Under the pieces are notes generated by a model. It made no database searches, was not told where the DNA came from, and saw only the letters and a program-made list of their open reading frames with translations. A program made the translations under genes and the position numbers. From Deltaproteobacteria bacterium (GTDB taxonomy: Bacteria > Bdellovibrionota > Bacteriovoracia > Bacteriovoracales > Bacteriovoracaceae): 36,250 nt of DNA. The stretch spans positions 1 to 36,250 of the forward strand of contig SBGE01000308.1 of assembly GCA_006226755.1 (NCBI GenBank). Reading direction: 5' to 3'. Below are positions 25,224 to 25,845 of the stretch, piece after piece. The first letter of the stretch is position 1, and each line of letters opens with the position of its first letter.

Positions 25224-25252
25224 TTGAAATGTGAACCCTCTATGGTTACAAT
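25224..25252 (+). promoter_or_regulatory. sigma70-like promoter for the 73-aa protein / histone unit
   Basis: TTGAAA-N17-TACAAT, ~40 nt upstream of the ATG at 25293. Confidence 0.65.
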
Positions 25253-25292
25253 TTCGCATTGTATTTTTGATTCCAAAAATTTGGAGGAATAA

Positions 25293-25514
25293 ATGGAAGT
25301 CGTCAAAAAGACTGATGCTTACGTCATCGTTAAGAAAAGATCTGGAAGATTTGGTGTAAAAAACTCTTCAGGAAAATGGATTAACGGAGAAGAAAAAGTA
25401 AAAATTCTAGTTGAGGCCGGATTGGTTAAAGCTGCTGTTGCAAAGAAGGAAGAACCTGTCGCTGAAGAAACAGCTGAAGCTGCTCCAGCTGAAGAAGCCT
25501 CTGCCGAAGCTTAA
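25293..25514 (+). CDS. Small protein with acidic Ala/Glu-rich C-terminal tail
   Basis: 73 aa MEVVKKTDAYVIVKKRSGRFGVKNSSGKWINGEEKVKILVEAGLVKAAVAKKEEPVAEETAEAAPAEEASAEA; TTTGGAGG RBS. Confidence 0.8.
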   Translation: MEVVKKTDAYVIVKKRSGRFGVKNSSGKWINGEEKVKILVEAGLVKAAVAKKEEPVAEETAEAAPAEEASAEA

Positions 25515-25567: not shown

Positions 25568-25795
25568 ATGGCTAAGAAAAAAACAACAAAGAAAGCTGCT
25601 CCTAAAGGCAAAAAGAAAGAAATGTTGCTTGTAGGATCTAAAACAAAAGAAGCTCTAAAGGGTAAGGGATACAATGTATCTTCTGATACTCTTGATGCAA
25701 TGAACGAGTACGTATACTGGCTTGTTGATCAAGCTCAAAAAAGATGTGCTGCCAACGGCAGAAAAACCATCAGACCATACGACATCCTAGGTTAA
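25568..25795 (+). CDS. Histone-fold protein with lysine-rich N-terminal tail
   Basis: 75 aa: MAKKKTTKKAAPKGKKKEM + LLVGSKTKEALKGKGYNVSSDTLDAMNEYVYWLVDQAQKRCAANGRKTIRPYDILG. GRKTIxxxDI and helix pattern match the histone fold (cf. HMf GRKTIKAEDIE; Bd0055-type bacterial histones). Confidence 0.85.
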   Translation: MAKKKTTKKAAPKGKKKEMLLVGSKTKEALKGKGYNVSSDTLDAMNEYVYWLVDQAQKRCAANGRKTIRPYDILG

Positions 25796-25816
25796 TTTCT
25801 AGATCATTGTTATATG

Positions 25817-25845
25817 AAACCCGCCTAAGGCGGGTTTTTTTTTGT
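25817..25845 (+). terminator. Rho-independent terminator after histone gene
   Basis: AAACCCGCC-TAA-GGCGGGTTT followed by T-run. Confidence 0.93.

Follow-up and report, generated by a model that had tools for sequence, protein, structure and literature searches.

Among solved structures, the protein considered here comes nearest to HLp of Leptospira perolatii (PDB 9QT0, 9QT1 and 9QT2; PMC12701072), a face-to-face (FtF) histone whose tetramer has about 60 bp of DNA wrapped around it. R49, N53 and R55 of HLp have been named as the tetramer residues that bacterial FtF histones conserve (PMC12701072). Matching residues (R41, N45, R47, T49 and D54) have been named in a haloarchaeal FtF histone (PMC11390915). 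A survey published in 2024 had placed FtF histones on record in the class Bacteriovoracia, with the bacterial-dimer group coming from the class Bdellovibrionia, and had reported that bacterial FtF histones commonly bear tails, most of them positively charged, whose sequence is not conserved (PMC11390915). The same survey raised ZZ histones as possible binders of such tails, and doubted the idea (PMC11390915). A solved structure from the phylum studied here is that of HBb, or Bd0055, of Bdellovibrio bacteriovorus (PDB 8CMP and 8FVX).

The window, by which we mean the whole 36,250-nucleotide stretch of DNA that was analysed, carries a gene for a small protein of this kind, which opens with ATG, is preceded by a ribosome-binding-like GAGGTG that is also kept in the second species of the genus, and translates as MAKKKTTKKAAPKGKKKEMLLVGSKTKEALKGKGYNVSSDTLDAMNEYVYWLVDQAQKRCAANGRKTIRPYDILG. 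We take the open reading frame to be a real gene, since homologues across many genomes encode the same protein. Features of the locus are listed in Table 1.

Table 1 Features of the histone locus, in window coordinates.
Feature	Position	Strand	Basis
FtF-type bacterial histone gene, 75 aa	25568..25795	+	ORF; nearest solved relative HLp (9QT0)
Lys-rich tail, probably disordered, residues 1-17 (9 K, net charge +9)	25568..25618	+	Sequence; residues 1-10 at pLDDT about 50
Histone-fold core, residues 18-75; RKTxxxxD motif at 65-72	25619..25792	+	AlphaFold2 model; residue counts per alignment column (78 sequences)
Upstream small gene, 73 aa, basic core and acidic Ala/Glu C-tail	25293..25514	+	ORF; 53-bp gap to histone gene
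Sigma-70-like promoter, TTGAAA-17-TACAAT	25224..25252	+	Scan; both hexamers conserved in same-genus genome G001
Intrinsic terminator after histone gene	25816..25838	+	10-bp stem followed by T run; strong

The original prediction of a single histone fold in the core was borne out by PDB sequence matches, by a profile search, by an AlphaFold2 model and by Foldseek. In the model (built from 58 aligned sequences), helices span residues 23-31, 39-62 and 70-74, with core pLDDT above 90; these three helices, with a long central helix, a short alpha2 and a one-turn alpha3, are those of an alpha3-type histone. A sequence search of the PDB placed HLp (9QT0) first (E=5.6e-12), followed by HBb (2.5e-5) and Thermococcus HTkC (0.0012), and a profile of 58 homologues returned the three in the same order (1.1e-21, 4.5e-14 and 3e-12, respectively). 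The single-chain structural comparison agreed: HLp was the top Foldseek hit (TM 0.93-0.94 over the target, rmsd 0.7-0.8 Å), ahead of HBb, which was second, and HTkC, and TM scores over alpha3 histones were 0.84-0.94 versus about 0.6 or less for HMfB and eukaryotic histones. The whole protein matched the Pfam family CBFD_NFYB_HMF at 16.6 bits, below the curated histone cut-off of 21.4, and 19 of 22 homologues matched it at E values up to 0.1. Partial matches to the NCBIfam F0F1 ATP synthase gamma model (20.7 of 436 bits) and to Pfam SpoIIP, ATP-synt and Frankia_peptide fell far under their cut-offs and were rejected; a PHROGs search returned nothing.

Residues at the predicted tetramer interface and at the DNA-contacting surface were compared across 78 sequences (the window protein and 77 loci). 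R59, N63 and R65 of the window protein, together with RKTIRPYD at 65-72, align with R49, N53 and R55 of HLp, and R59, N63, R65, T67 and D72 correspond to the five residues named in the haloarchaeal FtF histone. N63, R65, T67 and D72 are invariant (78/78), and position 59 is R in 58 sequences and K in the remaining 20. The DNA contacts S14, K15, K17, K21 and T57 of HLp are identical in the window protein (S24, K25, K27, K31 and T67, respectively), while those that differ are T56 (K66), A13 (G23), T27 (V37) and G29 (S39). The helix-1 lysines, comprising K16 of the FtF profile and its neighbours, are likewise kept (K25 in 78/78, K27 in 76/78, and K31 in 76/78 with R in the other two). Since HLp is nearest by sequence, profile and fold, and the tetramer-interface residues are present, we file the protein on sequence evidence as an FtF histone, its oligomeric state being read from these residues.

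Bd0055 had been offered as the yardstick for this protein, which would make it a bacterial dimer that bends DNA. The two proteins do share the alpha3 fold and a phylum, and HBb is the second-closest solved structure. HBb is nevertheless the weaker match by sequence, profile and fold alike, it has S, D and R at the positions equivalent to 59, 63 and 65, and dimers of its type have been reported from a class other than the one that holds the FtF histones (PMC11390915). The yardstick is thus misleading, and we consider a DNA-bending dimer of the HBb type very unlikely.

The same genome encodes further proteins of this kind. A tail-less FtF paralogue (L002:1498-1683) of 61 aa is 61% identical to the window protein, ends in RKTVRSSDF and belongs to a type that the tree groups, with support, in a clade of its own. 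Another gene product (C27; L003:1495-1971) combines a Cys/His-rich N-terminus with a C-terminal histone fold like that of the bacterial dimers, and has K and D at positions 59 and 63; it fits the published ZZ-type zinc-finger histones, a known class, with no Pfam zinc-finger match. Full-length ZZ histones occur in about half of the family's genomes. Three HU/IHF-type proteins are also encoded in the genome. Some relatives have double histone-fold proteins of about 140 aa with two folds per chain (e.g. L029:1485-1908).

The N-terminal extension had been described as a 19-residue tail with 10 lysines. The tail is indeed Lys-rich, and the tail and core pieces quoted in that description both occur in the translation, with LLVG between them; the quoted stretch, MAKKKTTKKAAPKGKKKEM, has nine lysines, however, and as the conserved core begins at about residue 18 (EMLLVGSK), the tail proper is 17 residues long. 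Such richness in lysine is unusual within the window, where, among the 40 open reading frames of at least 100 aa, N-terminal 19-mers have at most six lysines and any 19-mer at most seven. The homologues came from relatives of the genome and from named genomes, mainly Bacteriovoracaceae and Halobacteriovoraceae, with other records titled Omnitrophota, Acidobacteria, Planctomycetota, Kofleriaceae, Gemmatimonadota and one archaeon. Across the 78 sequences, the core is nearly fixed and the tails run from 2 to 42 residues, a range in which individual lengths may be off (starts were picked by Shine-Dalgarno fit) and from which the extreme values of L121 and L136, probably wrong starts, were excluded. 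Proteins with cores 93-95% identical to that of the window protein have tails of 7 (L058), 14 (L066), 21 (L064) and 42 (L068) residues. Composition in the tailed homologues is of low complexity (48% K, 27% A, 11% T), and no tail position after the start Met is conserved in the 78 sequences. On a tree built from the core only, with few columns behind it and many forks left open, tail presence needed 13 changes (bootstrap range 12-15), at least five of them forced by well-supported branches. FtF histones 68-82% identical to the window protein were also seen in six records titled Candidatus Omnitrophota (L070, L075, L078, L085, L086 and L089), every one with a short tail (5-7 residues); these reflect either horizontal transfer or wrongly binned contigs.

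A fixed core, a variable tail of K, A and T, and at least 13 tail gains or losses together suggest that the tail is a polybasic DNA-anchoring extension and not a site-specific regulatory one. The regulatory mode originally suggested for a eukaryote-like tail found no support in the alignment of homologues, in which neither the length nor the sequence of the tail is conserved. A regulatory tail, in which reversible acetylation of lysine or some other mark controls DNA binding, would have nine accessible lysines to work with, and a precedent exists in Streptomyces HupS, a Lys-rich HU protein that binds DNA less when acetylated (PMC11229371). We nonetheless judge this quite unlikely, as the tail holds no conserved site, shrinks to just a few residues in proteins with 85-95% identical cores and needs at least 13 changes of state across the tree. 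Nor do full-length ZZ histones track the tail: they are as frequent in genomes without a tailed FtF histone (14/29) as in those with one (4/8), so the idea that ZZ histones read the tail is unsupported, in agreement with the doubt voiced in the survey (PMC11390915).

Conversely, the tail could be a neutral low-complexity expansion, arising from slippage in Lys/Ala codon repeats and having no function of its own. Its length does vary without restraint, and in L068 the long tail consists of repeats at spacings of 15 and 18 nt. Against this, a composition of 48% K and 27% A with almost no acidic residues is held over about 30 tailed proteins from several phyla, and it is this constancy across phyla that points to selection on the charge of the tail. 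For the tail encoded in the window, repeat slippage was rejected, as no DNA repeat of 12 bases or more is present there. A neutral origin is in our view unlikely. The aligned sequences show the pattern of an extension selected for its charge and free of fixed positions, and they offer nothing in favour of a conserved regulatory code.

Very probably, then, the window protein is an alpha3 FtF wrapping histone with a Lys tail that contacts DNA non-specifically, a reading in which we infer the tetramer, the wrapping, the function of the tail and the abundance of the protein, the first three by analogy with HLp and with Lys-rich bacterial HU proteins. Histone folds would dimerise, and two dimers would close into a torus-shaped tetramer via R59, N63 and R65, round the rim of which DNA (some 60 bp, if HLp is a guide) would wrap. 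Contacts with DNA at the rim would be made by S24, K25, K27 and K31 of helix 1 and by the RKT loop of L2 (K66-T67). The flexible tail, with its nine lysines in 17 residues, would add non-specific electrostatic contact, either strengthening binding or extending to DNA nearby, as do the Lys-rich extensions of HupB/HupS or linker histone H1. The histone would work as one of several nucleoid-associated proteins in the genome.

The gene immediately upstream has a family of its own, with a conserved basic core of about 48 aa and a variable acidic C-tail rich in Ala and Glu, which is found in 24 of the 59 genomes searched; the protein had no Pfam or NCBIfam match. No terminator was found on this strand across the gap between the two genes, and both probably share the sigma-70-like promoter, whose function is predicted from the scan. 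A perfect inverted repeat, TACAAT-TTCGC-ATTGTA, at 25247-25263 overlaps the -10 hexamer; it occurs as a single exact copy within the window, is conserved in the same-genus genome and appears operator-like. The upstream gene adjoins the histone gene in G000 and G001; the search of 59 relatives gave no further case. Co-transcription with the histone is thus probable in this genus only. When open reading frames were clustered around 48 homologue loci and the window, no neighbour family was common to all histone loci and the largest neighbour sets were local, covering seven loci. A second cluster of 15 members was dismissed as a neighbour, being the antisense frame of the histone itself.

It could be proposed that the acidic-tail protein serves the histone as its own partner or chaperone and covers the basic tail, which would make it the bacterial equivalent of an acidic histone chaperone. 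Within the family its gene co-occurs weakly with FtF histones (15/20 versus 6/17, Fisher p=0.02, uncorrected for kinship), and we regard such a role as extremely improbable. The proposal takes the histone and acidic-tail genes of this genus to be transcribed together from the conserved promoter with its inverted repeat.

Taken together, the window histone and the three-histone set of its genome add one more case to a described group. Earlier work had already covered the fold, the group, the class of organism and the charged tails, so the overall picture is unchanged and the protein is a good example, not a surprise. The locus puts a tailed FtF histone into a predatory bacterial lineage in which a tail-less FtF paralogue, a ZZ histone and proteins of the HU/IHF type also occur, and the homologues, with cores up to 95% identical and tails of 4 to 42 residues, provide a natural series for measuring the effect of a basic tail on a wrapping histone. 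Compared with the published FtF histones of Bacteriovoracia (PMC11390915), the protein agrees in organism class, type and positive, non-conserved tail, and no distinguishing feature was found. Actinobacterial HupS and HupB (PMC11229371) resemble it in having a flexible Lys-repeat extension on a small DNA-binding core, an analogy of mechanism only, since they have the HU fold, a C-terminal tail and no homology to it. HBb/Bd0055 has the alpha3 histone fold in common with the window protein, but is a dimer with no long tail and with S/D in place of the R/N interface pair. The likeness is greatest to HLp, which has the same alpha3 fold, 45% core identity, the R/N/R tetramer residues, the RD clamp and the helix-1 S and K contacts; the two differ in the L2 loop, which is RKT in the window protein and RTT in HLp, and in the disordered N-terminus, which spans 6-7 residues in HLp versus about 17, with nine lysines, in the window protein.
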